A DNA stretch of 64,000 bases, from contig NZ_FQVX01000004.1 in the NCBI RefSeq assembly GCF_900129495.1, positions 124,001 through 188,000 of the forward strand. Direction: 5' to 3'. Below the pieces are notes generated by a model. It was not told the origin of the DNA. It ran no database searches and saw only the letters and a list, made by a program, of their open reading frames with translations. Made by a program: the position numbers and the translations under genes. Every line of letters starts with the position of its first letter. Within the stretch, counting starts at the first letter, position 1. Shown here in pieces: positions 37,414 to 50,649 of the stretch. Source of the DNA: Geodermatophilus nigrescens (lineage in GTDB: Bacteria; Actinomycetota; Actinomycetes; Mycobacteriales; Geodermatophilaceae).

Positions 37414-37907
37414 CAGTGCGGCGGGCGGGCGCTGCGGGTGCGCACCGGGGGCTGCGAGGACCACGGGAAGTCGATCCACGCGTCGGTGCGGCGCCACACG
37501 TAGTCGCACTTGACCAGCGACCGGGACTTCTCGTAGACGACCGCGGTCCGCACGTCGGAGACGTAGCCGGCGCAGAAGTCGCGCACCAGCTCCAGCGTCT
37601 TGCCGGTGTCGGCGACGTCGTCGGCCACGAGCACCCGTGCGCCGGTCAGGTCGACGGCGTCCAGCGTCGGCGGCAGCACCACCGGCAGCTCCAGCCGCTC
37701 GTCGACGCCGGTGTAGAACTCGACGTTCATCACGAACAGGTTCTTGACGTCGAGCGCGTAGCCGAGCGCCCCGCCGAGGAACAGCCCGCCGCGGGCGATC
37801 GACAGGATCAGGTCGGGCTCGAACCCGTCGTCGGCCACCTGCTGCGCCAGCTCGCGGGCCGCGCCGCCGAACAGCTCGTAGGTCAGGACCTCGCGCTCGT
37901 CGCTCAC
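37413..37907 (-). CDS. Phosphoribosyltransferase (hypoxanthine/xanthine-type, COG2236-like)
   Basis: 164 residues from GTG at 37907. The PRPP-binding loop is [19 protein letters not shown] (about residue 95), with a first-loop [17 protein letters not shown] and a C-terminal hood [17 protein letters not shown]. Members of this group salvage purine bases; substrate here is not determined. GTG with GAGG 9 bases upstream. The purine theme matches the uricase cluster 2 kb away, but the strands differ. Confidence 0.88.
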
Positions 37908-38078
37908 GGGTGCCACCTCAGCAGAAGCCGGGCGGCGCCGGCCACACGGACCTGCCCGGGTCGACATGGCGAGCGGCCGGGGACGGGTCACCGCACTTTC
38001 CCGGATCTCCGCTCAACGCCGCTCCGATCCGGGCGAAGTCTCCCCGGACGGACGGCACCGCGGACACGAGGAGCAGGG

Positions 38079-39665
38079 ATGACGGGACGGCTGCGCGGAC
38101 TCCGGGTGAGCACCCGGTTGCTCGCGCTGGTGCTGGCGGCGGTCGTGGGCATGGCCACGGTCGCGGTCATCGGCGCACTGGCCGTGCGCGACACGATCGA
38201 GGAGGAGCAGCGCGCCCAGGCGCGCACGGCGGTGGAGACCGCCCTGGGCACCGTGGCCGCCTACGGCGCGCAGGAGGCCGCCGGGGTGCTCACCCGGGAG
38301 CAGGCGCAGGCCGCGGCGATGGACGCCGTGCGGGAGCTGCGCTACGCCGGCGAGGAGTACTTCTGGATCAACGACATGTCGCCGACGATGGTCATGCACC
38401 CCATCAAGCCCGAGCTCGACGGCACCGACCTGTCCGGGAACCGCGACCCCGACGGCAAGGCGCTGTTCGTGGAGATGGTCGACGTCGTGGCCCGCGACGG
38501 CAGCGGCTTCGTGGACTACATGTGGCCCCGCCCGGGCGAGGAGGACCCGCAGCCCAAGATCTCCTACGTCGCCGGCTACGAGCAGTGGGACTGGGTGGTC
38601 GGCTCGGGTCTCTACGTCGAGGACCTCGACGGCGCGGTCCGCAGCGAGCTCGCCTCGATGGCGCTGTGGTCGGTGCCGGTGCTGGCCGCCATGCTCGGCC
38701 TCTCCCTGCTGGTCTCGCGCAGCATCACCCGCCCGCTGCGGGAGATGACCGAGGTCCTCGGCACCGCGAGCCTCCGCCAGCGCCTGGCGACCGGGGGCAC
38801 CGGCAACGAGTTCGACCGGCTCGGTGCCGCGGTGAACGACACCCTGGACCGGGTCGCGGGGGTCGTCGCCGAGGTCGGTGCGGCCTCGAGCGCGCTCGAG
38901 CGCTCCGCCCGGGAGCTGTCGTCGACCAGCGAGGCCATCGCCGGCACCACCGAGCGCTCGACCGAGCAGGCGGGCAGTGCCACCGCCGCGGCGACCGAGG
39001 TCAGCGCCGGCATCGAGGCGGTCGCCGCCGGAGCCGAGCAGATGGGCGCCTCGATCCGGGAGATCGCGCACAACGCCGCGGAGGCCGCCCGCATCGCCGG
39101 GACCGCCGTCGCGGCCGCGGAGAGCGCCAACGCGACGGTCGCCGAGCTCGGGACGTCCTCGGAGGAGATCGCCACCGTCGTCAAGACCATCACCAGCATC
39201 GCCGAGCAGACCAACCTGCTCGCGCTCAACGCGACCATCGAGGCGGCGCGGGCCGGGGAGGCGGGCAAGGGGTTCGCGGTCGTGGCCAACGAGGTCAAGG
39301 AGCTGGCGCAGGAGACCGCGCGGGCCACCGAGGACATCGCCCGCCGCGTGCAGGCCATCCAGGGGGGCACCCGGGGTGCCGTCCAGGCCATCGGCAGCAT
39401 CGCGGAGGTCATCGCCCAGATCGACGGCATCCAGACGACGATCGCCGCGGCCGTCGAGGAGCAGACCGCCACGACCAACGAGATGAGCCGGTCGATCGGC
39501 GAGGCCGCCCGCAGCGGCCGGGCCGTGGCGGCCTCCGTCGGCGACGTCGCCTCCGCGACCCGGGAGACGGACGCCGGCCTCGGCGGCGTGCGCGCGGCCG
39601 CCGCAGAGCTGGTGGGCACGTCGCGCGAGCTGCAGGAGGCCGTCGCCGCCTTCACCGCGGGCTGA
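38079..39665 (+). CDS. Methyl-accepting chemotaxis protein (single-Cache sensor)
   Basis: 528 residues. TM1 at about 10-33, an extracytoplasmic sCache_2 domain at about 40-185 ([20 protein letters not shown] and [21 protein letters not shown] are its diagnostic runs), TM2 at 187-208, HAMP at 209-262 and a signalling domain to 525. sCache_2 sensors often bind small organic acids such as C2-C4 carboxylates. The tip [20 protein letters not shown] is nearly identical, also in DNA, to that of the chemoreceptor at 35316. ATG at 38079 with GAGGAGCAGGG upstream. Confidence 0.95.
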
Positions 39666-39722: not shown

Positions 39723-40628
39723 TCAGCAGAAGCCCGGCGTGCCGAGCCAGGCGACCTCCGCCGGCGGCACGTCGTCGCGCAGCACCGTGCCCTCGATGAG
39801 GCCGTAGGGGCGGTCGTCGGCGTGGTAGACGAGCACGTCGTCCTCACCGGGGGTGTTGGTCAGGCCGTAGGCGGAGAGGTCCTGCAGGAAGTGGTGCCGG
39901 TTGGGCATCGACATCCGCACCTCGGCGACGTCGGGGAAGCGCTCGAGCACCGCCTCGCCCATCGCGTACAGCGTCTGCTGCAGGGCGCGGGAGTGGGTGG
40001 CGGCGAAGGTCTCGAGCAGCGTCGTCCGGACGCCGTCGAAGTGCGCGTCCCAGTCCAGCTCGGCAGAGGTGTGGCGCCACCGGGCGGTGACCGCGGTGGC
40101 GAGGACGCGGTCACGGGTCTCGGGCAGCGTCGTGTACCGGTCCCGCGGGTAGCCCCAGAACTCCGAGCCGGTGGTCTTGAGGACGACGAGGTCGGTCAGG
40201 CCGGCGAGCACGTGCGCCTCGTCCCCGTCCACGGTGACCACCGCCGTGCGCACCTCCCCGCCGGGCCGGCGGAGGGCGTGGTCGTGCGGCCGGCCGCCGA
40301 CGGCGATCCGCTCCCAGCCGTAGGACTCGACGGCGACCCGCGCGCCGGTGATCCAGTCGTAGGAGCCGGCGAGGTGCCGGGCCAGCCGCAGGCCGAACGC
40401 CTCCGGCGAGCCGACGCCGTCGCGGGCGAAGGCGAACACGGTGTTCTTCTGCGCGTCGGTGGTCAGGACGTGCGCGTTGTCGCCCTCGGTGTGCGCGGCG
40501 GTGAAGTCGCCGCGCAGGCTCGTGCTGACGTTCAGGTCCGCCACCTCGTGGCGGGGGCCGCTGCGGTCGACCGCGACGACGCGGACCTCCGCCTTCCCGT
40601 ACTGGTTGGGTCCGAGCACGATCGCCAT
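39723..40628 (-). CDS. uox: Urate oxidase (uricase)
   Basis: 301 residues, cofactor-free uricase with duplicated T-fold. The N-terminal YGKAEVRVV has the active-site Lys, LTTDAQKNTVFAFAR contains the Thr partner, and SMPNRHHFLQDLSAYG has the Asn-His active-site end. It oxidises urate to 5-hydroxyisourate. The ATG at 40628 follows the 5-hydroxyisourate hydrolase gene by 55 bp, in the order uraD-HIUase-uricase, the full route to S-allantoin. Confidence 0.96.
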   Translation of the reverse strand: MAIVLGPNQYGKAEVRVVAVDRSGPRHEVADLNVSTSLRGDFTAAHTEGDNAHVLTTDAQKNTVFAFARDGVGSPEAFGLRLARHLAGSYDWITGARVAVESYGWERIAVGGRPHDHALRRPGGEVRTAVVTVDGDEAHVLAGLTDLVVLKTTGSEFWGYPRDRYTTLPETRDRVLATAVTARWRHTSAELDWDAHFDGVRTTLLETFAATHSRALQQTLYAMGEAVLERFPDVAEVRMSMPNRHHFLQDLSAYGLTNTPGEDDVLVYHADDRPYGLIEGTVLRDDVPPAEVAWLGTPGFC

Positions 40629-40683
40629 GCCGCGCAGCCTGCCGCACTCCGGTTGCGCGGGTGTTGCACGTGGAACCGCGCCC

Positions 40684-41001
40684 TCAGCTCCCGCGGTAGG
40701 TCGAGTAGGCGAACGGGGACAGCAGCAGCGGCACGTGGTGGTGGGCGGCGGGCTCGGCGACGGCGAAGGTCAGCGTCACCTCCGGCCAGAACGCCGCCGT
40801 CCCGCGCGCCTCGAACCAGGCGCCGGTGCCGAACACCAGCCGGTGCGGGCCGGCCGCGGTGGCCTCCTCGGTGAGCCGGCACCGGCCGTCGTCGTCGGTG
40901 ACGCCCTCGGCGAGCAGGTCGTCGCCCGCGAACAGCCGGACGGCGACCCCGGCCGCCGGCCGCCCCGCCACCGCGTCCAGGACGTGCGTCGAGACGCTCA
41001 C
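40684..41001 (-). CDS. uraH: 5-Hydroxyisourate hydrolase
   Basis: 105 residues, transthyretin-related. STHVLDAVAGRPAAGVAV, the active-site Arg/His region and the C-terminal YRGS tetrapeptide with HHHVPLLLSPFAYS before it are exact family marks. GTG start overlapping the uraD stop by 4 bases. Confidence 0.97.
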   Translation of the reverse strand: MSVSTHVLDAVAGRPAAGVAVRLFAGDDLLAEGVTDDDGRCRLTEEATAAGPHRLVFGTGAWFEARGTAAFWPEVTLTFAVAEPAAHHHVPLLLSPFAYSTYRGS

Positions 41002-41495
41002 GACACCAGCCCCCGCACCCGCAGCTCGGTGATCTGCGCGAGCTGCTCGACCACCTCGGCGCGCTCGGCGTCCTCGTCGTTGGTCAGCCGGCGGCGCAGC
41101 TCGGCGAGCATCTCGTCGGGGGAACGGCCGGCCGCGCGGATCAGGTAGACGTGGCCGAACCGCTCCTCGTACTCGCGGTTGCCCGCGACGATGGCGGCGC
41201 GGGTGTCGTCGTCGGCGCCGCCCATCGAGCCCTGCTCCCGGCGGGAGGCCTGCGCCTCGGCCGAGGAGCCCTCCACCCGGTCGCCGATCCGCGGGTGCGC
41301 GGCGAGCGCCATCTGCACCTCGTCCCACGGCAGCGCGCGGGCCACCTCGCCGGCGCGGCGGACCAGCGTGTCGGCGTCGGGGAACGGGCGGCCGGCGACC
41401 AGCCCGGCGGCGAAGCGGGGGGCGGCGTTGCAGCCACGGAGCGCCTCGACGGCGGCGTCGGCGGGCTCGCTGTTGAACTCGTCGAGGCGGGACAC
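40998..41495 (-). CDS. uraD: 2-Oxo-4-hydroxy-4-carboxy-5-ureidoimidazoline (OHCU) decarboxylase
   Basis: 165 residues, all-helical. The catalytic His in LAAHPRIGDR (about residue 67), SSAEAQASRREQ and VAGNREYEERFGHVYLIRAAGRS are signature strings of UraD. First gene of the leftward urate-to-allantoin operon. The gap to malate synthase on the other strand is only 44 bp, so divergent promoters overlap. Confidence 0.97.
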   Translation of the reverse strand: MSRLDEFNSEPADAAVEALRGCNAAPRFAAGLVAGRPFPDADTLVRRAGEVARALPWDEVQMALAAHPRIGDRVEGSSAEAQASRREQGSMGGADDDTRAAIVAGNREYEERFGHVYLIRAAGRSPDEMLAELRRRLTNDEDAERAEVVEQLAQITELRVRGLVS

Positions 41496-41539: not shown

Positions 41540-43111
41540 GTGACGGACGTGCGCGTGGAGGGCCCCGACGTCGATCGGGCCGACGAGGTGCTCACCCCGG
41601 AGGCGCTGGAGTTCGTCGCCGACCTGCAGCGCCGCTTCGGCCCCCAGCGCGACACCCTGCTGGCGGCCCGCGCCACCCGCCGCGCCGAGATCGCCGCCGC
41701 CCGGTGGCTGGACTTCCGCCCCGAGACCGCGGGGATCCGCGACGGCGACTGGCGGGTGCCCCCGCCGCCGCCCGGCCTGGTCGACCGCCGCGTGGAGATC
41801 ACCGGCCCGACCGAGCCGAAGATGGCCGTCAACGCGCTCAACTGCGGCGCCCAGGTGTGGCTCGCCGACCTGGAGGACGCCAACACCCCGCACTGGCGCA
41901 ACGTCGTCACCGGGCAGCTCGTGCTGCGCGACGCCGTCCGCCGGACGCTCGCGTTCACCACCCCGGAGGGCCGGGAGTACCGGCTGCGCGAGGACGGCGA
42001 CCTGCCGACGATCGTGCCCCGCCCCCGCGGCTGGCACCTGCCCGAGCGGCACCTGCTGGTCGACGGGCAGCCCGCCGTGGGCGCACTGGTCGACGCCGGG
42101 CTGTACCTGTTCCACAACGCCGCCGAGCAGCTCGCCCGCGGCAGCGGGCCGTACTTCTACCTGCCCAAGATGGAGGGGCACCTCGAGGCCGGGCTGTGGA
42201 AGCTGGTCTTCGACCACGCCGAGCAGGCCCTCGGGATCCCCGAGGGGTCGATCCGGGCCACGATGCTCGTCGAGACCATCCCGGCGGCGTTCGAGATGGA
42301 GGAGATGCTGCACGCGCTGGGCAGCCACGCCACCGGCCTCAACGCCGGGCGCTGGGACTACCTGTTCAGCGTCATCAAGGTCTTCCGCGAGGCCGGGCCG
42401 GACTTCGTGCTGCCCGACCGGGCCGCGGTCACCATGACCGCGCCGATGATGCGCGCCTACACCGACCAGCTCGTCGCCGTCTGCCACCGCCGCGGCGCCA
42501 TGGCGATCGGCGGCATGGCGGCGGCCATCCCCTCGCGCCGCGACGCCGAGGCCAACGAGCGAGCGCTGGCCAAGGTCCGCGAGGACAAGACGCGCGAGGC
42601 CGGCGACGGCTTCGACGGCTCCTGGGTCGCTCACCCCGACCTGGTGCCCGTCTGCCGGGAGGCCTTCGACGCCGTCCTCGGCGACCGGCCCAACCAGCTC
42701 GACCGGCAGCGCCCCGAGGTGTCGGTCACCGCGGCCCAGCTCCTCGACGTCGCCGGCGTCCCGGGCGGACGCACGATGGCCGGCCTGCGCGCCAACGTCG
42801 AGGTGGCGATCCGCTACCTGGCCGCGTGGCTCGGCGGCAACGGCGCGGTCGGCATCCACGGCCTCATGGAGGACGCCGCCACCGCCGAGATCAGCCGCTC
42901 GCAGGTGTGGCAGTGGGTGCACGCGGGCGTGGAGCTCGACACGGGGGAGACCGTGACCGCGGAGCTGGTGCGCCGCGTCGTCGCCGAGGAGGTCGCGGGG
43001 ATCGGGGAGCTGCCGCGACTGGACGACGCCCGCCGGCTGTTCGAGCAGGTCGCGCTCGCCGACGACTTCCCGGACTTCCTGACGCTGCCGGCCTACGAGC
43101 TCGTCTCCTAG
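41540..43111 (+). CDS. aceB: Malate synthase A
   Basis: 523 residues. RPRGWHLPERHL, PKMEGHLEAGLW, MLVETIPAAFEMEEML (Mg-binding Glu), GRWDYLFSVIK, and the catalytic base Asp in HGLMEDAATAEISRSQVWQW identify the glyoxylate-cycle enzyme joining glyoxylate and acetyl-CoA. Usual length for form A. GTG at 41540. It shares a base with the following gene's start (TAGTG). No isocitrate lyase is nearby; instead uricase genes are divergent, suggesting glyoxylate from ureides as substrate. Confidence 0.97.
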   Translation: MTDVRVEGPDVDRADEVLTPEALEFVADLQRRFGPQRDTLLAARATRRAEIAAARWLDFRPETAGIRDGDWRVPPPPPGLVDRRVEITGPTEPKMAVNALNCGAQVWLADLEDANTPHWRNVVTGQLVLRDAVRRTLAFTTPEGREYRLREDGDLPTIVPRPRGWHLPERHLLVDGQPAVGALVDAGLYLFHNAAEQLARGSGPYFYLPKMEGHLEAGLWKLVFDHAEQALGIPEGSIRATMLVETIPAAFEMEEMLHALGSHATGLNAGRWDYLFSVIKVFREAGPDFVLPDRAAVTMTAPMMRAYTDQLVAVCHRRGAMAIGGMAAAIPSRRDAEANERALAKVREDKTREAGDGFDGSWVAHPDLVPVCREAFDAVLGDRPNQLDRQRPEVSVTAAQLLDVAGVPGGRTMAGLRANVEVAIRYLAAWLGGNGAVGIHGLMEDAATAEISRSQVWQWVHAGVELDTGETVTAELVRRVVAEEVAGIGELPRLDDARRLFEQVALADDFPDFLTLPAYELVS

Positions 43112-44343
43112 TGCTCGACGACCAGGTCCACGCCGAGCTGGACCGCCGCCTCGCCCCGGTCGACGCCGCCCGCGCGGTTGCGTACCGGGGGGAGCGGCCC
43201 GGCCGGCAGCCGGTGCACACCTGCTACGTGCCCGCCGACGCCGTCGTCCCCGGGCTGGCCGCCGCGTGGGGCGCCGCGGCGCTCGCGGCGCTGGATGAGC
43301 ACGGCCTGCCCGACCTCGGGTACGACGGCGCGCTGCTGGACGAGGTGCTGCCCCGGGTGCGCGCCAAGCTCGCCGCCGAGCCGGTGGAGGACCTGCGGGT
43401 CGACGCCGAGGACGGTTACCGCGGGCACCCCGACGCCGAGGACGGCGACGTCGTCCGTGCCGCGCAGGCGGTGGCCGCCGACCTCGCCGCCGGCGCCGCG
43501 CCGCCGTCGGTCGGGATCCGGGCGAAGTCGCTGGAGGGTCCGACCCGCCGCCGCGGCGTCCGCTCCCTCGACCTGTTCCTGGGTTCCCTGGGGGCCGGGA
43601 GCGCCACGAGGGCCACCGTCACCCTGCCCAAGGTGACCGACGTCGAGCAGGTGCGCGCCTTCCTGCCCGTGCTCGACGCGCTGGAGGCCGCGCACGGCGT
43701 CGCCCTCGACCTCGAGCTGCAGGTGGAGACGCCGCAGGCGGTGCTCGGCGGCGACGGCGCGGTGACGCTGGCGCGGATGGTGCACGCCGCCGGCCCGCGG
43801 CTGACCGGCCTGCACCACGGCACCTACGACTACAGCGCGGCGCTGGGCATCGCGGCGGCGCACCAGTCCTCCGACCACCCGGCGCTCGACCTCGCCAAGC
43901 AGCTCATGCAGGTCGCCGTCGCGGGCACCGGCGCCCGGGCCGTCGACGGGTCCACCAACGTCCTGCCCGTCGGCCCGCGGGAGCAGGTGCACGCCGGCTG
44001 GCGGGTGCACGCCGGCCTCGTCCGCCGGGCGCTGGAGCGCGGTCTGTACCAGGGCTGGGACCTGCACCCCGCCCAGCTGGTCACCCGGTACCTCGCCACC
44101 TACGCGTTCTTCCGCGGCGCGCTGCCGGCCGCGGCCGCCCGGCTGTCGGCCTACGTGGAGCGGGCCGACGCCGGCGTGCTCGACGAGCCGGCCACCGCCC
44201 GCGCGCTCGCCGGCGTGGTGCTGCGCGGGCTCGACTGCGGCGCCGTCGACGACGCCGAGGTGGCCGCCGCGACCGGACTGGACCGTCCGGTTCTCGACGG
44301 CCTGGCGGGACGCACCGGAGCACCCGCCCCCGGCAGCGCCTAG
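43111..44343 (+). CDS. CitE-like aldolase-fold protein (DUF6986 type)
   Basis: 410 residues. No exact enzyme known to me; the fold is the CitE/HpcH-like TIM barrel. A Mg-binding Glu is in LELQVETPQAV (about residue 210) and Asp in HHGTYDYSAALGI (about residue 235), as in citrate lyase beta and malyl-CoA lyase; VGIRAKSLEG supplies a basic residue near the barrel's start. GTG immediately at the malate synthase stop makes the pair coupled. A role in handling an acyl-CoA or 2-hydroxy acid around glyoxylate/malate is an inference from position. Confidence 0.75.
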   Translation: MLDDQVHAELDRRLAPVDAARAVAYRGERPGRQPVHTCYVPADAVVPGLAAAWGAAALAALDEHGLPDLGYDGALLDEVLPRVRAKLAAEPVEDLRVDAEDGYRGHPDAEDGDVVRAAQAVAADLAAGAAPPSVGIRAKSLEGPTRRRGVRSLDLFLGSLGAGSATRATVTLPKVTDVEQVRAFLPVLDALEAAHGVALDLELQVETPQAVLGGDGAVTLARMVHAAGPRLTGLHHGTYDYSAALGIAAAHQSSDHPALDLAKQLMQVAVAGTGARAVDGSTNVLPVGPREQVHAGWRVHAGLVRRALERGLYQGWDLHPAQLVTRYLATYAFFRGALPAAAARLSAYVERADAGVLDEPATARALAGVVLRGLDCGAVDDAEVAAATGLDRPVLDGLAGRTGAPAPGSA

Positions 44344-44364: not shown

Positions 44365-47300
44365 GTGACCGGGGACGCGCTCGGTCCCCGCACGTCCCCC
44401 TCCGGAGGCGGAGCGGGGGGCCCCGGCATGGCCGAGCGCGTGGCGGCCCTCGACTGGTCGTCCACCCCGCTCGGTCCGCGGGAGTCCTGGCCGCAGAGCC
44501 TGCGCACCGCGCTCGACATCTGCCTCACCTCGCGCTTCCCCATGCTCGTGTGGTGGGGCCCCGACCTCATCGACTTCTACAACGACGCCTACCTGCCCAC
44601 CCTCGGGGACAAGCACCCGTCGGCGCTGGGCCGGCCGGCCTCGCAGGTGTGGCCCGAGGCCTGGGACGACCTCGGCCCGCTGGCCGACCAGGTGCTCGGC
44701 GGCGGCGGTGCCACCTACAACGAGGACCAGATGCTGCTCCTCGAGCGCCACGGTTACGTGGAGGAGACGTACTGGACGTTCTCCTACAGCCCGATCGCCG
44801 AGGAGAGCGGCGGCGTCGGCGGGGTCTTCGTCGTCGCCACCGACACCACCGACCAGGTGCTCGGCGAGCGCCGGCTGCGCGTGCTCGGCGACCTGGGCGA
44901 GCTGTCGGCCGCGGCCATGACGACCGCCGCGGAGGCCTGCCGGGCCGCCGTCACGGTGCTCGACCGGCACCGGCACACGGTGCCCGCGGCCGTGGCCCTG
45001 CTCCGCGAGGACGACGGCGAGGACCTGCGCCCGGTCGCCGTCTCGGGCGCGGAGCCCGGCACGCCCGCCGCGGACGGGGTGCTCCCGGCCGCCGTGGACG
45101 AGGTCGTCCGGCGGGTGCTGCGCACCGGCGCCGCGGAGGTCTGCGACGGTCTCGCCGCCTCCGACCGGCTGCGGCCCTGCACCGTGGGGCCCGCCGTCCC
45201 CGACCGGGCCGTCGTGCTGCCCGTCTCGGTGTCCGGGGAGGAGGAGACGGCGGGGGTGCTCGTCCTCGCCGTCTGCCCCTACCGCGCGCTCGACGCCACC
45301 CACCGCGGGTTCCTCGACCTCGTGGCCGGGCACGTCTCCACCGCGGTCACCGACGCGCGCGCCTACGAGGCCGAGCGGCGCCGCGCGGAGGCCCTCGCCG
45401 AGCTCGACCGGGCCAAGACCGACTTCTTCAGCAACGTCAGCCACGAGTTCCGGACGCCGCTGACGCTGATCATGGGCCCGGTCGCGGAGCTGCGGTCCTC
45501 GCCCGCGCTCGCCGCCGACGCGCGGGCCGTCCAGGAGCTCGAGGTCGTCGAGCGCAACGCGTTGCGGCTGCAGAAGCTGGTCAACACCCTGCTCGACTTC
45601 TCCCGGCTGCAGGCCGGCCGCATCGACGCCCGCTTCGAGCCGGTCGATCTCGCCGCGGTCACCACCGAGCTCGCCAGCGTCTTCCGCTCGGCCGTGGAGC
45701 GGGCGGGGCTGGCGCTCACCGTCGACTGCCCGCCGCTGTCCGGGCCGGTGCACGTCGACCGGGACATGTGGGAGAAGGTCGTCCTCAACCTGCTCTCCAA
45801 CGCGCTGAAGTTCACCTTCACCGGCGGCATCACCGTCCGGCTGCGCGAGCGCGACGGCGCCGCGGTGCTCACCGTCGCCGACACCGGCACCGGCATCCCC
45901 GCCGCCGAGCTGCCCCGGCTGTTCGAGCGGTTCGCCCGCGTCTCCGGCGCCCGCGCCCGCTCCGGCGAGGGCAGCGGCATCGGCCTGGCGATGGTGCGCG
46001 AGCTGGCCGGGCTGCACGGCGGGACGGTCGACCTCGAGAGCGCGCCCGACGTCGGCACCACGTTCACCGTCACGGTGCCCACCGGCACCGCGCACCTGCC
46101 GGCCGACCGCGTCGTCCCCGGGCGGGCGGAGGCACCGGCGGTGTCCCCGGCGGCCACCCCGTTCGTCACCGAGGCGCTGCGCTGGCTGCCCGGCGACGAC
46201 CCCGACGGCGGGCCGGTCCCCGCCGCGGTGCCCGGCGTGCGCGCCGGCCGGGTGCTGGTCGCCGACGACAACGCCGACATGCGCGACTACGTCGTCCGGC
46301 TGCTCGCGCCCGTGCACGAGGTGCGGGCGGTCTCCGACGGCCGGGCGGCGCTCGAGGCTGCCCTCGCCGACCCGCCGGACCTCGTCGTCAGCGACGTGAT
46401 GATGCCGCGGATGGACGGCATGGAGCTGCTCACCGCGCTGCGCGCCGACCCGCGCACCGCGCGCGTGCCGGTGGTGCTGCTCTCGGCGCGGGCCGGCCAG
46501 GAGGCCGCGGTCGAGGGGCTGGCCGCCGGCGCCGACGACTACCTGGTCAAGCCGTTCTCCGCCCAGGAGCTGCTGGCCCGGGTCGACGCCCACCTGCAGC
46601 TGGGCCGCGCGCGGCGGGAGGCCGAGGAGCGGTTCACCACCATGGCCGACCTCGCCCCGGCGCTGATCTGGGTGGCCGGCCCCGACGGCCGGCGGGTGTT
46701 CCTCAACGCCGGCTGGACCGCCTACACCGGCCGCCCCGACGCGGCCGAGCTCGGCGACGGCTGGCGCGAGGGCCTGCACCCGCAGGACCGGGAGCGCTAC
46801 GACGCCGCCGTCGCCGCGGCCACCGCCCGCGGCGAGGGCTGGGAGGTCGAGTTCCGGCTGCGCCGGGCCGACGGCGCCTGGCACTGGCTGCTGGAGCGGG
46901 CGGTCCCGATCGGCGGCACCGGCGGCCCCGGCGGCTGGGTGGGCAGCTGCACCGACATCAACGCCCGGTACCAGGAGACCGAGCGGCAGACGCTGCTGGC
47001 CGGGGTCGGCACGGCGCTCGACCGCGAGACCGAGGTGGACGGCCAGCTCGCCGAGCTCGCCCGCCTGCTGGTCGAGCGGCGACTGGCCGACGTGTGCTCG
47101 GTCCGGGTGGTGGGGGAGGACGGCCGCCTGCGTTACGCCGGGCGGGCGGGCGTCGACCCCGGCGCACGCGTCGCGCTCGACCACCTGGAGCCGCACGCCG
47201 GGATCGGCCTGGAGGTGCTGGGTACCGGGACCCCGGTGCTGCGCACCCGGCAGTCGGGGGGCGACGACGGCATCCGGCTGGACATGCACTCGGCGCTCGT

Positions 47301-49458
47301 CGTGCCGCTCAGCGTCCGCGGGCGGGTGCGTGCGGTCATGTCCCTGGGCCGGCGGGGGGACGCCGCCGCCTTCCACGAGGACGACCGGGCGCTGGTCGAG
47401 GAGATCGCCGCCCGTGCCGCGCTGGCCCTCGACAACGCCCTGCTGCTGGCCGACGAGCGGGCGACCGCCCGGCGGCTGCGGCTGCTGCAGCGGGTCACCG
47501 CCGAGCTGTCGGCGGCCACCACGCCCGAGGAGGTCGCCCGCGTCGCGGCCGGCCACCTGGTCACGCTGGCCGGGCACGACGCCCGGGCCGGGGTCTTCGA
47601 GCTCGACGACACCGGCCGCGGCCTGCTCCTGCTCTCCCTCACCGGCGACGACCCGGTCGACCGGGCGCGGTGGTCGGCGCTGCCGCTGTCGGCGCCGCTC
47701 GCCGTCACCACGGCGGTCACCGAGCGCCGGCCGCTCTGGATCGACGACATGGCCGACTGGCCGGGTGCCCGCGGCGACCTCGCGCCCGACCAGGCCGAGA
47801 CGCTGCGCTCGTTCCGCCTGGCCGCCACCGTGGCGCTGCCGCTGCTGGTGGCCGGCCGGGTGGTCGGCGTCGTCGGGGTCGGCTTCCCGCAGCCGCGCTC
47901 CTTCTCCCCGGCCGAGCGCGGCATGCTGCTCGCGGTCGCCGAGCAGTGCGCGCAGGCCCTCGACCGCGCCCGCCTCTACCGCGCCGAGCAGGGCATCGCG
48001 CAGACGCTGCAGCTGAGCCTGCTGCCCTCGCAGCTGCCCCGCCTCGAGCGGCTGGCGCTGGCCGCCCAGTACCTGCCCGGCGCGGCCGGCACGTCCGCCG
48101 GCGGCGACTGGTACGACGTCGTCGAGCTCGGCGAGGACCGCGTGGGGATCGCCGTCGGCGACGTCGTCGGCCAGGGCCCGTCGGCCGCGGCGGTCATGGG
48201 CCAGCTGCGCAGCGCGCTGTCCGCGGCCCTGCTGCAGGGCTGCGCGCCGGCCGAGGCGCTGGAGCTGCTCGACCGCTTCGCCGCGCGGCTGCCCGGCTCG
48301 CTCGCCTCGACGGCGGCGTGCCTGGTGCTGGACTGGCGGGCCGGCACGGTGCGCTACGCCCGGGCCGGGCACCCGCCGCCGCTGCTGGTCGCCGACGGCC
48401 GCGCCGGCTTCCTCGAGGACGGTGCCGGCGCGGTGCTGGGCGCCCCGGGCCGCCGGCCCTACGCCGAGGGGTCGGTCGACGTCGCGCCCGGCACTACGCT
48501 GCTGCTCTACACCGACGGCCTCGTCGAGCGCCGCGGCGAGCCCCTGGACACCGGCCTGCAGCGGGTCGCCGACGCCGCCGCCGCGCTCTCCGACGTCGCC
48601 CCCGCCGGGCTGACCCGCGCGCTGCTCGCCGGCGTGCTGGACGAGACGGCGCTGCCCGACGACGTCGCGGTGATCGCCGTGCGCGTCACGCCGCCGCCGC
48701 TGCACGAGACGCTGCCCGCCGACCCCGCCCGGCTGCGCGGCGTCCGGCGCGCGGTGACCGCCTGGGCCCGGGCGGCCGGCCTGTCCGAGGACGGCGTCGA
48801 CGACCTGCAGCTGGCCCTGGGCGAGGCGCTGGCCAACGCCGTCGAGCACGCCTACGCCGGCAACGGCGGCGGGGGGCGCTGCGAGTACCGCCTGGAGCGG
48901 ACCGCCGACGGCAGCGTCGACGTCTGCGTGCGCGACGAGGGCGTGTGGCGTCCCGCGCCGGCCGACCGGGGCCACCGCGGCCGGGGCCTGGAGCTCATCT
49001 CGGCGCTGGCCACCGACGTCGAGGTCGCCCGCACGCCCGACGACGAGGGCACGGACGGCACCGGCACCACCGTGCGCTTCCGCTTCGTCCCGGCCGGCCC
49101 CGGCCCGGACGCGCCGCCGGTCCGGCTGCGGCCTGTCGCGGAGGCGGGGGAGCCCGCCCGGCTGACCGTCTCCCGCGGGCCGGACGGCCTGCGGCTGGCG
49201 GCGTCCGGCGAGGTCGACCTGGCCGCCGCCGCCGCGCTGCGGGCCGAGGCGCTGCGGGCGCTGGAGGATCTGCCGGCCGGCGGGCGGGCGGTGCTCGACC
49301 TGCGGGAGGTCACCTACCTGGCCAGCGCCGGTGTGGGCCTCGCGCTGGAGCTGCGCGCCGCGGCCGCCGCCCGGCGGGGCCGGCTCGACATCGCCACCTC
49401 CGAGGGCAGCGCGCCCCGCCGGGTGCTGGCCCTGGGCGGGGTGCTCGAGAGCGCCTGA
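44365..49458 (+). CDS. 1,697-residue hybrid sensor: histidine kinase, receiver, PAS, GAF, PP2C phosphatase, RsbW-like kinase and STAS
   Basis: Domains in order, roughly: PAS-like sensor (40-160), GAF-like (170-335), HisKA with NVSHEFRTPLTL (His near 359), HATPase (435-575, NLLSNALKF and DTGTGIP), receiver (630-750, acceptor Asp in VVSDVMMPRMDG near 675, Lys in VKPFS), PAS (755-875), two GAF domains (875-1035, 1045-1205), PP2C/SpoIIE phosphatase (1210-1440, GGDWYD, GDVVGQG, LPDDVAVI), RsbW-like ATPase (1455-1580, GEALANAVEHAY and GRGLELI) and a C-terminal STAS domain (1605-1697) with the phosphorylatable Ser in YLASAGVG. One chain thus holds a two-component kinase and all three partners of a partner switch. 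GTG at 44365; an ATG at 44428 is an alternative. No membrane segments. Confidence 0.92.
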   Translation: MTGDALGPRTSPSGGGAGGPGMAERVAALDWSSTPLGPRESWPQSLRTALDICLTSRFPMLVWWGPDLIDFYNDAYLPTLGDKHPSALGRPASQVWPEAWDDLGPLADQVLGGGGATYNEDQMLLLERHGYVEETYWTFSYSPIAEESGGVGGVFVVATDTTDQVLGERRLRVLGDLGELSAAAMTTAAEACRAAVTVLDRHRHTVPAAVALLREDDGEDLRPVAVSGAEPGTPAADGVLPAAVDEVVRRVLRTGAAEVCDGLAASDRLRPCTVGPAVPDRAVVLPVSVSGEEETAGVLVLAVCPYRALDATHRGFLDLVAGHVSTAVTDARAYEAERRRAEALAELDRAKTDFFSNVSHEFRTPLTLIMGPVAELRSSPALAADARAVQELEVVERNALRLQKLVNTLLDFSRLQAGRIDARFEPVDLAAVTTELASVFRSAVERAGLALTVDCPPLSGPVHVDRDMWEKVVLNLLSNALKFTFTGGITVRLRERDGAAVLTVADTGTGIPAAELPRLFERFARVSGARARSGEGSGIGLAMVRELAGLHGGTVDLESAPDVGTTFTVTVPTGTAHLPADRVVPGRAEAPAVSPAATPFVTEALRWLPGDDPDGGPVPAAVPGVRAGRVLVADDNADMRDYVVRLLAPVHEVRAVSDGRAALEAALADPPDLVVSDVMMPRMDGMELLTALRADPRTARVPVVLLSARAGQEAAVEGLAAGADDYLVKPFSAQELLARVDAHLQLGRARREAEERFTTMADLAPALIWVAGPDGRRVFLNAGWTAYTGRPDAAELGDGWREGLHPQDRERYDAAVAAATARGEGWEVEFRLRRADGAWHWLLERAVPIGGTGGPGGWVGSCTDINARYQETERQTLLAGVGTALDRETEVDGQLAELARLLVERRLADVCSVRVVGEDGRLRYAGRAGVDPGARVALDHLEPHAGIGLEVLGTGTPVLRTRQSGGDDGIRLDMHSALVVPLSVRGRVRAVMSLGRRGDAAAFHEDDRALVEEIAARAALALDNALLLADERATARRLRLLQRVTAELSAATTPEEVARVAAGHLVTLAGHDARAGVFELDDTGRGLLLLSLTGDDPVDRARWSALPLSAPLAVTTAVTERRPLWIDDMADWPGARGDLAPDQAETLRSFRLAATVALPLLVAGRVVGVVGVGFPQPRSFSPAERGMLLAVAEQCAQALDRARLYRAEQGIAQTLQLSLLPSQLPRLERLALAAQYLPGAAGTSAGGDWYDVVELGEDRVGIAVGDVVGQGPSAAAVMGQLRSALSAALLQGCAPAEALELLDRFAARLPGSLASTAACLVLDWRAGTVRYARAGHPPPLLVADGRAGFLEDGAGAVLGAPGRRPYAEGSVDVAPGTTLLLYTDGLVERRGEPLDTGLQRVADAAAALSDVAPAGLTRALLAGVLDETALPDDVAVIAVRVTPPPLHETLPADPARLRGVRRAVTAWARAAGLSEDGVDDLQLALGEALANAVEHAYAGNGGGGRCEYRLERTADGSVDVCVRDEGVWRPAPADRGHRGRGLELISALATDVEVARTPDDEGTDGTGTTVRFRFVPAGPGPDAPPVRLRPVAEAGEPARLTVSRGPDGLRLAASGEVDLAAAAALRAEALRALEDLPAGGRAVLDLREVTYLASAGVGLALELRAAAAARRGRLDIATSEGSAPRRVLALGGVLESA

Positions 49459-49551: not shown

Positions 49552-50649
49552 ATGGGCCGGAGCAGTCCCGGCCCCGGGGTGGTCGAGGGGCCAGTGGACC
49601 GAGGCACGGGGACGCCGCCGGCGAGGGCCGGAGCGGGATCGGACGCGCCTGCGTCGGACCCCGCCGCGTCCGCGTCCGCCGGTCCGGGCCTGCGGCACAG
49701 CGCCGCGCTCGTGCGCGGCCCCGGCGAGGTCGTCGACGTCGCCGCCGCGTTCCTGGACGAGGGCCTGCGCGCCGGTGACCTGCCGGTGCTCGCCGCCCCG
49801 CCCGAGGCGGCCGACGCCGTCCGCCGGGCACTCGGGGTCCGGGCCGGCGCCGTCGAGGTGGACGGGCGGGTCTGCCTGCTGGGAGCCCGCGCCCCGGACG
49901 CCGTGGGCGTGCTGCGGACCGCGCTCGACCGTGCGGTGGCGAGCGGCTCGGGCCGGCTGCGCGTCCTGGCCGTGACGACGTTCGGCCCCGACCCCCGGCA
50001 CTGGCGTGAGATCCGGCGCTACGAGGCGGCCTCCAACGCACTGGTCGCGGCGCTGCCGGTCACCGCCCTGTGCGTCTACGACCGGTCCGACGTCCCGGAC
50101 GACGCGCTGGACACCGCCCGGGCCACCCACCCCGAGCTGCTGATGGGCGGCCTGCGGGTGAGCAACTCGGAGTACGTGCTGCCCGATCCGTGCCTGCGCG
50201 AGCTGGCCGCCGCCCGGGAGCCGCTCGAGACCGGGACGCCCGTCTTCGCCGTCGACGACGTCCCCACGCTGCCCCGCCTGCGCGGTGCCCTCCGCGAGGT
50301 GCTGGCGGCGGTCGTCCCCGACCCCGACCAGCGCGCCGATCTGCACCTCGCCGCGAGCGAGGTGGCCGCCAACGCCTTCCGGCACGGCCGGCAGCCCGTC
50401 TCGGCGCGGGTGTGGGCCGACGAGCGGAGCGTGGTCTGCACCGTCACCGACTCCGGGCGCGGTCACGACGACCCCTTCGCCGGCTTCGCGCCCGCGCACG
50501 GCGACGACCTCGCGGCCGGAGGGATGGGGCTGTGGCTGGCCCGCAAGCTGTGGGACTCCGTGGACCTGCTCCCGGGCCCGGTCGGCGGGCTGACGGTGCG
50601 GCTGGCCACCACGCTGCACGCCCCGTCGTCCGGCCGCGGGGCGGCTTGA
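49552..50649 (+). CDS. MEDS-domain protein with RsbW-like ATPase
   Basis: 365 residues. After a disordered Pro/Ala-rich start of about 45 residues comes a MEDS domain (about 48-200; HSAALVRGPGEVVDVAAAFLDEGLRAGD and the W-R-E-I-R-R-YE region), a DcmR-like module related to RecA-fold sensory proteins. The C-terminal GHKL ATPase has N-box SEVAANAFRHG (about residue 268) and G-box GMGLWLARKL (about 325). Such proteins are typical of actinobacteria, where the MEDS part senses a signal and the kinase acts on STAS partners. The CACAAT at 49540-49545 ahead of the ATG fits a leaderless start. Confidence 0.85.
   Translation: MGRSSPGPGVVEGPVDRGTGTPPARAGAGSDAPASDPAASASAGPGLRHSAALVRGPGEVVDVAAAFLDEGLRAGDLPVLAAPPEAADAVRRALGVRAGAVEVDGRVCLLGARAPDAVGVLRTALDRAVASGSGRLRVLAVTTFGPDPRHWREIRRYEAASNALVAALPVTALCVYDRSDVPDDALDTARATHPELLMGGLRVSNSEYVLPDPCLRELAAAREPLETGTPVFAVDDVPTLPRLRGALREVLAAVVPDPDQRADLHLAASEVAANAFRHGRQPVSARVWADERSVVCTVTDSGRGHDDPFAGFAPAHGDDLAAGGMGLWLARKLWDSVDLLPGPVGGLTVRLATTLHAPSSGRGAA

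Follow-up and report, generated by a model that had tools for sequence, protein, structure and literature searches.

A conserved protein of Geodermatophilus nigrescens with a hybrid histidine kinase and the modules of a whole partner switch in one chain

The window analysed in this work was a stretch of 64,000 nucleotides from Geodermatophilus nigrescens (assembly GCF_900129495.1, contig NZ_FQVX01000004.1, positions 124,001 to 188,000 of the forward strand), and the gene under study was located at window positions 44365-49458 on the + strand. It consisted of one open reading frame (ORF) of 1,697 codons, with a coding-type guanine plus cytosine content by codon position (0.82/0.54/0.99); the opposite strand harboured a 2,503-residue frame of low complexity, rich in Q, R and G. 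The encoded protein had the domain order PAS-GAF-HisKA-HATPase_c-REC-PAS-GAF-GAF-PP2C(SpoIIE)-HATPase_c_2(RsbW-like)-STAS, and its features were as follows (window coordinates; aa, amino acid positions; the values are Pfam E values, and PAS_4 and the first GAF were found in a Pfam search with the N-terminal part alone):

44365-49458, + strand: whole gene, 1,697 codons from GTG; start uncertain, alternative in-frame ATG at 44428 (aa 22)
44572-44856, + strand: N-terminal PAS (PAS_4), aa 70-164 (5.1e-7)
44956-45348, + strand: first GAF (GAF_2), aa 198-328 (5.9e-8)
45412-45618, + strand: HisKA, aa 350-418 (3.8e-16), acceptor H360 (codon 45442-45444)
45757-46083, + strand: HATPase_c of the histidine kinase, aa 465-573 (1.9e-36), N, G1 and G2 box residues conserved
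46252-46584, + strand: receiver (Response_reg), aa 630-740 (1.3e-25), acceptor D677 (codon 46393-46395)
46651-46971, + strand: second PAS, aa 763-869 (4.4e-20)
47041-47436, + strand: second GAF, aa about 893-1024 (Pfam)
47515-47964, + strand: third GAF, aa 1051-1200 (Pfam)
48133-48687, + strand: SpoIIE-type PP2C, aa 1257-1441 (Pfam SpoIIE, 1.1e-44), D1248 lying just N-terminal of the Pfam match
48712-49083, + strand: RsbW-like kinase/anti-sigma module (HATPase_c_2), aa 1450-1573 (3.3e-31), E1487, N1491 and D1524 kept
49099-49140, + strand: linker between the RsbW-like and STAS modules, aa about 1579-1592, poorly predicted in the structural model described below
49195-49443, + strand: STAS_2, aa 1611-1693 (1.6e-8), predicted phospho-Ser S1654 (codon 49324-49326) in LASAG

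Orthologue alignments started anywhere between residues 1 and 22 and were compatible with both start codons. The STAS_2 match scored 35.0 bits (cut-off 29.2), and the other STAS model, PF01740, fell below its own cut-off. No membrane domains were detected in the 1,697-residue protein. A preliminary description, made from the sequence, had placed HisKA, receiver, PP2C, RsbW-like and STAS modules, the last with its Ser, in a single chain of 1,697 residues, and this was borne out by the Pfam order and the orthologues; a PAS and three GAF domains extend the modules it had listed by name. The internal His-Asp phosphorelay that it also proposed amounts to one His-to-Asp step, with H360 and D677 intact, and no Hpt domain was present among the Pfam matches of the protein.

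The gene was present in all 12 other genomes of the genus that were searched, 11 times in full and once (G011) split by a contig end, with the matching piece of the cut gene on another contig; in the same search, no full-length match was obtained in eight genomes of other families. In a scan of named genomes the best 80 of 509 matches were kept, corresponding to 78 loci; among these, 28 loci (L037-L064) were of the full architecture type, two of them cut (L049 at the 3' end and L063 at the 5' end). Their hosts were Geodermatophilus, Blastococcus, Trujillonella and Actinomycetospora, so that the same order, which the preliminary description had suggested looking for in other actinobacteria, was found in the last three genera too. 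Module labels in the locus surveys came from profiles made from the orthologues themselves, and six representatives were cross-checked with Pfam. One further locus from another family (L150), which could be Actinomycetospora, showed the same order from kinase to STAS in Pfam but no N-terminal PAS/GAF. A 1,698-residue ORF (L151, 1250-6343, - strand) ended in GAF-PP2C-RsbW-STAS; its first ~1,050 residues matched no Pfam family at E 0.001, and part of them may be non-coding frame.

The recurrence of the same order in orthologues at 48-78% identity is explained neither by chance nor by a frameshift. An assembly or reading-frame artefact joining separate genes was ruled out by the identical order in orthologues from many separate assemblies; nothing was found in its favour, and its probability is practically nil.

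Catalytic and acceptor residues were compared in 38 full-length matches, which gave 29 distinct sequences after removal of duplicates (the window's protein and 28 orthologues). H360, the N, G1 and G2 box residues, D677 and K729 were invariant in the 29 sequences, as in a hybrid histidine kinase. The same was true of the PP2C residues D1248, D1266, D1384, D1432 and D1433 and of the motifs GGDWYD, GDVVGQG, YTDGL and the C-terminal DD (29 of 29 in each case). D1266, D1384 and D1432/D1433 aligned, mapped by eye, with D628, D746 and D795 reported for the metal site of SpoIIE (PMC5468089), and the metal-binding Asp residues are thus in place; SpoIIE Gly629, reported to bind metal via its backbone (PMC5468089), corresponded to Val1267 here, likewise a Val in Rv1364c and RssB. 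In the RsbW-like module, E1487, N1491 and D1524 were invariant (29 of 29), which includes the catalytic Glu and Asn of HATPase_c_2, and the LASAG motif with Ser1654 was invariant in the STAS module (29 of 29), as for the phospho-Ser reported in STAS proteins generally (PMC8256260). Degenerate residues in the PP2C or RsbW-like module, named in the preliminary description as the observation that would overturn its proposal, were not seen in any of these sequences.

An AlphaFold2 model of residues 1197-1697, built on an alignment of the window's protein and 27 orthologues, had a mean predicted local distance difference test (pLDDT) score of 84 and a predicted template modelling (pTM) score of 0.80. 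Its best fold match in the PDB was Rv1364c (3ke6), which was also the best match by sequence (E 1.8e-51), and the PP2C part also matched RssB and SpoIIE. A second model, of the RsbW-like and STAS modules together (window and 14 orthologues picked from those 27), had a pTM of 0.81 despite the poorly predicted linker (pLDDT below 50), a value expected if the two modules dock. In VIA-align comparisons with this second model, the RsbW-like module matched the anti-sigma factor UsfX (Z 17.7, root-mean-square deviation 2.9, 123 residues) and RsbW (Z 17.3), and the STAS module matched the anti-sigma antagonist 4qtp (Z 15.3, root-mean-square deviation 1.7, 100 residues).

By order and fold the protein thus appears to resemble Rv1364c with an RsbK- or HsbR-like front end. 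Rv1364c of M. tuberculosis is described as a protein of 653 residues with one PAS sensor and the order PAS-PP2C-RsbW-STAS (PMC9138534), and its kinase and phosphatase are reported to act on Ser600 of its own STAS (PMC9138534, PMC10950880). The two proteins share a whole partner switch in one chain, in the order PP2C-RsbW-STAS, and a Trp in the G1 box, but here the switch is preceded by a hybrid histidine kinase, a receiver and extra PAS/GAF domains. In the reported RsbK-RsbY (Bacillus cereus) and RsfS-RsfR (M. smegmatis) systems, a histidine kinase phosphorylates a receiver-PP2C protein that dephosphorylates an anti-sigma antagonist (PMC10950880); there kinase, phosphatase and antagonist are separate proteins, whereas here they form one chain. 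In HptB-HsbR-HsbA (Pseudomonas aeruginosa) and CrsR-CrsA (Shewanella), HsbR is described as a receiver-PP2C-RsbW chain with a separate STAS-type substrate (PMC6482189); the histidine kinases are also separate and phosphate arrives via HptB, while both kinase and substrate are fused here.

The statement of the preliminary description that the parts of such a switch are usually separate proteins has to be qualified, since a one-chain switch was already known in Rv1364c and two more PP2C-RsbW-STAS chains lacking the histidine kinase (L003 and L004) were found in the same genome. One-chain switches and two-component control of such switches are therefore both known already, and what is added here is the presence of both layers in one chain. 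No description of the full combination in one chain was found among the matches listed, in openly licensed titles and the opening parts of abstracts, which is a weak negative; a text search of PMC2887360 found nothing on kinase fusions. The genome also encoded a paralogue (L002, 994-3963, - strand; genome C4:214447-216564) with GAF-kinase-receiver-HATPase_c_2 by Pfam and neither PP2C nor STAS; this type, in which the receiver is joined straight to an RsbW-like module, was represented by 10 loci, all within the genus. Of 47 matches in the genome, many were to the PP2C region (about aa 1145-1450) and scattered, suggesting a large set of SpoIIE-type phosphatases.

Natural split counterparts of the protein were found in 20 loci encoding kinase-receiver-PP2C proteins without STAS; HATPase_c_2 was detected in the same frame in 16 and not in 4. 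The hosts of the STAS-less kinase-receiver-PP2C-RsbW proteins included Mycobacterium, Streptomyces, Micromonospora and Amycolatopsis, among others. Four of the 20 (L021, L100, L108 and L109) had no downstream sequence, which left 16 testable loci, and a stand-alone STAS frame was found within 600 bases in 15 of these 16 (on the same strand in 13). An adjacent stand-alone STAS was found in none of the 26 testable loci among 31 kinase-only relatives. The STAS profile used for the neighbour and phosphosite counts was partly built from separate domains that it later matched. With another profile, made only from fused STAS domains, the adjacent frames were the same and the kinase-only loci likewise had none. 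The presence of STAS beside the split loci and its absence beside the kinase-only loci indicate that fused and split forms share the same partner: by sequence, genes lying side by side in the split type are a single protein here. In 11 of the 20 the N-terminal half is nearest to that of the protein studied, while the PP2C-RsbW half of the split type is of another branch.

The acceptor Ser was kept in all 64 fused STAS rows and in 48 of 50 separate ones (separate meaning that the frame contained no further module), and the two groups differed in the residue before it. In the type studied here this residue was Ala in 30 of 30 rows; in the 34 fused rows lacking the histidine kinase it was Ser (20), Ala (6), Thr (4), Gly (2), Asp (1) or Cys (1), and in the separate rows Asp (30), Gly (15), Pro (3) or Ala (2), so that Asp preceded Ser in 1 of 64 fused vs. 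30 of 50 separate rows. Three truncated rows with HATPase_c_2 and STAS only (L137, L141 and L148) were left out of both groups; the first and last of them keep the Ser. Among aligned references, the residue was Asp in SpoIIAA and TM1442, Ser in 4hyl and Gly in the mycobacterial RsfB; the Asp of the SpoIIAA/TM1442 type is absent here and does not define the family, given 4hyl and RsfB. The rows are related and the difference follows a few clades, so it is a lead and not a test, and the preceding residue is not claimed as proof of action in cis.

The origin of the fusion was addressed with two trees, both quick searches, of PP2C-RsbW (55 rows) and of kinase-receiver (74 rows, without a mixture model), with the rows of the type studied thinned to 12 in each. 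In the PP2C-RsbW tree this type grouped with the fused switches lacking the histidine kinase (sets of 21 and 22 rows; Shimodaira-Hasegawa-like approximate likelihood ratio test (SH-aLRT) 96 and 98), apart from the main split-type branch (14 rows, SH-aLRT 99), and was not one clade (two changes, an unresolved fork). In the kinase-receiver tree it formed one branch together with the contig-cut L020 (99), and the nearest branch comprised 11 of the 20 split-type rows (97 for the union). Four other split-type rows lay just outside and five (L094, L098, L104, L109 and L112) far off, showing that the split type is not one lineage. Simple gene fusion from the split-STAS type is disfavoured, the PP2C-RsbW half going with the fused switches lacking the histidine kinase and the kinase half with the main split branch. 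The simplest reading, which the trees suggest, is that a hybrid kinase half was joined to a pre-existing one-chain switch.

The gene directly downstream encodes a candidate partner in trans:

49552-50649, + strand: RsbA-type regulator (MEDS and HATPase_c_2), NF041045 220.4 bits against a cut-off of 210

An RsbA-type gene was directly downstream in all 20 Geodermatophilaceae loci with flanking sequence, and here a MarR gene comes next. A protein named RsbA, possibly of the same family, is reported to regulate SigB in Streptomyces coelicolor (PMC8346170). Elsewhere in the genome, one sigma gene (one of 10 matches) was above the SigBFG cut-off; the HATPase_c_2 gene that precedes it had RsbW as its best NCBIfam match, far below the cut-off of that model. 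The switch L003 adjoins these two genes (L003/L156, genome C3:741024-744538), and a free-standing STAS frame is also located near it. The RsbA-type neighbour and the sigma-linked HATPase_c_2 protein are candidate targets. Upstream, a DUF6986 gene, itself after a malate synthase gene, ends 21 nt before the gene studied; this pair (window 41540-44343) was found near many Geodermatophilaceae loci and a shared transcript is possible. Genes for uricase and OHCU decarboxylase (purine breakdown; window 39723-41495, - strand) lie close to each other and adjoin the malate synthase gene, and a chemoreceptor with Cache, HAMP and MCP signalling domains was located at window 37416-39665.

Starting from the observed anatomy, conserved catalytic positions, conserved order and split-gene counterpart, we favour, with slightly better than even confidence, the conversion of a His-Asp signal to a serine partner switch within one chain. 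Signals at the N-terminal PAS/GAF would control the autophosphorylation of H360 and the passage of phosphate to D677; the state of the receiver, together with the PAS-GAF-GAF sensors, would be passed to PP2C via helical linkers, which are reported to couple diverse sensors to PP2C dimers (PMC12143880). PP2C would then dephosphorylate S1654 of its own STAS or of its dimer mate's, and the RsbW-like module would rephosphorylate it. The state of S1654 would decide whether STAS is bound to the RsbW-like module of its own chain or available to an anti-sigma factor elsewhere, most likely the RsbA-type neighbour or the anti-sigma factor of the genome's SigF/B-type sigma factor, and general-stress transcription would be adjusted as the outcome. 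We infer these enzymatic steps, the action in cis, the target and the direction in which the receiver acts; action in cis has, by analogy, a direct precedent in Rv1364c. Control of such a phosphatase by a phosphorylated receiver is reported for RsbK-RsbY, RsfS-RsfR (PMC10950880) and HptB-HsbR (PMC6482189). Phosphorylation of the receiver is reported to raise phosphatase activity in RsbY and to lower it in RsfR (PMC10950880), so that the receiver's effect here may be of either sign.

Several observations weigh against this conversion within one chain. The canonical G1 box is DxGxG, and the RsbW-like module has W1528 at the third Gly position; DxGxW was found in 88 of 88 rows matched by the profile of the family studied, and also in Rv1364c, so this departure is not taken as defining, and as a mark of a dead kinase the Trp is uninformative, being common to all 88 rows (all from one profile). 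Ala1653, not Asp, precedes S1654, and with the Trp in the G1 box this makes activity likely, not certain. The RsbW Glu and the STAS Ser are not needed in every relative: L063, a contig-cut orthologue in a metagenome assembly that is outside the 29 sequences, carries Ala in place of the RsbW Glu, and in L141, a fused protein lacking the histidine kinase, Ala stands at the position of the STAS Ser. These two loci are possible natural inactive variants. The kinase step is contested even for Rv1364c, to judge from the title alone of a 2008 paper on that protein, known from reference lists, which contains the words 'Loss of kinase activity'. The pTM of the RsbW-STAS model does not by itself put Ser1654 at the kinase site. 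Among the 16 testable split loci, L094 and L112 have the adjacent STAS frame on the opposite strand and L104 has no STAS frame nearby. An RsbA-type neighbour was found in none of seven Actinomycetospora loci, which weakens it as a universal target.

Some of these points would fit other explanations. PP2C and the RsbW-like module may act mainly in trans on free STAS proteins, the fused STAS regulating access by docking or as a pseudo-substrate; the sister proteins adjoin a separate STAS gene, HsbR-HsbA is reported to work in trans (PMC6482189), the near absence of Asp before Ser in fused rows (1 of 64) could mean altered use, the fused relative L141 lacks the Ser, and the genome does hold a free-standing STAS frame near L003. 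We consider this rather unlikely, as the Ser was invariant in the 64 fused rows, a Pfam scan of 10 neighbouring proteins, which covered some but not all of the frames, gave no STAS match, and Rv1364c reportedly acts on the STAS of its own chain (PMC9138534). Alternatively, the RsbW-like module would be a binder of sigma or STAS and not an active kinase, with PP2C and another kinase setting STAS phosphorylation. The Trp at the G1 glycine position, the Ala of L063 at the Glu and the disputed kinase activity of Rv1364c (from the title) would agree with this. An outside kinase, protein kinase D, is reported to have a role for Rv1364c (PMC9138534). Drift would be expected in an inactive module, though, and Glu, Asn and Asp are invariant in 29 of 29 sequences, in a fold that matches RsbW and SpoIIAB at Z 16-17, which makes an inactive module improbable. 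About equally improbable is a functional separation of the His-Asp and serine halves, with the receiver acting on other proteins and the switch obeying only its own PAS-GAF-GAF: the two halves do differ in their tree neighbours, and a switch with PAS and GAF lacking the histidine kinase exists (L115), but the fusion has persisted across at least four genera (29 distinct full-length sequences), and there is a second type with kinase, receiver, PP2C and RsbW, both suggesting that the link is used.

The favoured one-chain conversion may also be put in a bolder form, as a true single-chain His-to-Asp-to-Ser converter, in which a hybrid kinase was joined to an older one-chain switch, the receiver flips PP2C vs. 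RsbW inside a single molecule or dimer, and the phosphosite, which has no acidic residue ahead of the Ser, was retuned as a tethered substrate needs weaker recognition. This form is tentative and stands well short of even confidence. If it were true, this would be the first protein type with a two-component sensor and a whole partner switch as one polypeptide, and cis switches would be recognisable in sequence by Ala, Ser or Thr replacing Asp.

Work on the handover from two-component systems to partner switches usually involves several proteins of varying levels, and here the stoichiometry is fixed at 1:1. This fixed stoichiometry and the natural split counterparts allow direct tests of action in cis or in trans, of the sign that the receiver's effect takes and of what the residue before Ser does. 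The architecture mostly recombines known parts, and its interest lies in their all being joined in one conserved protein of soil bacteria.

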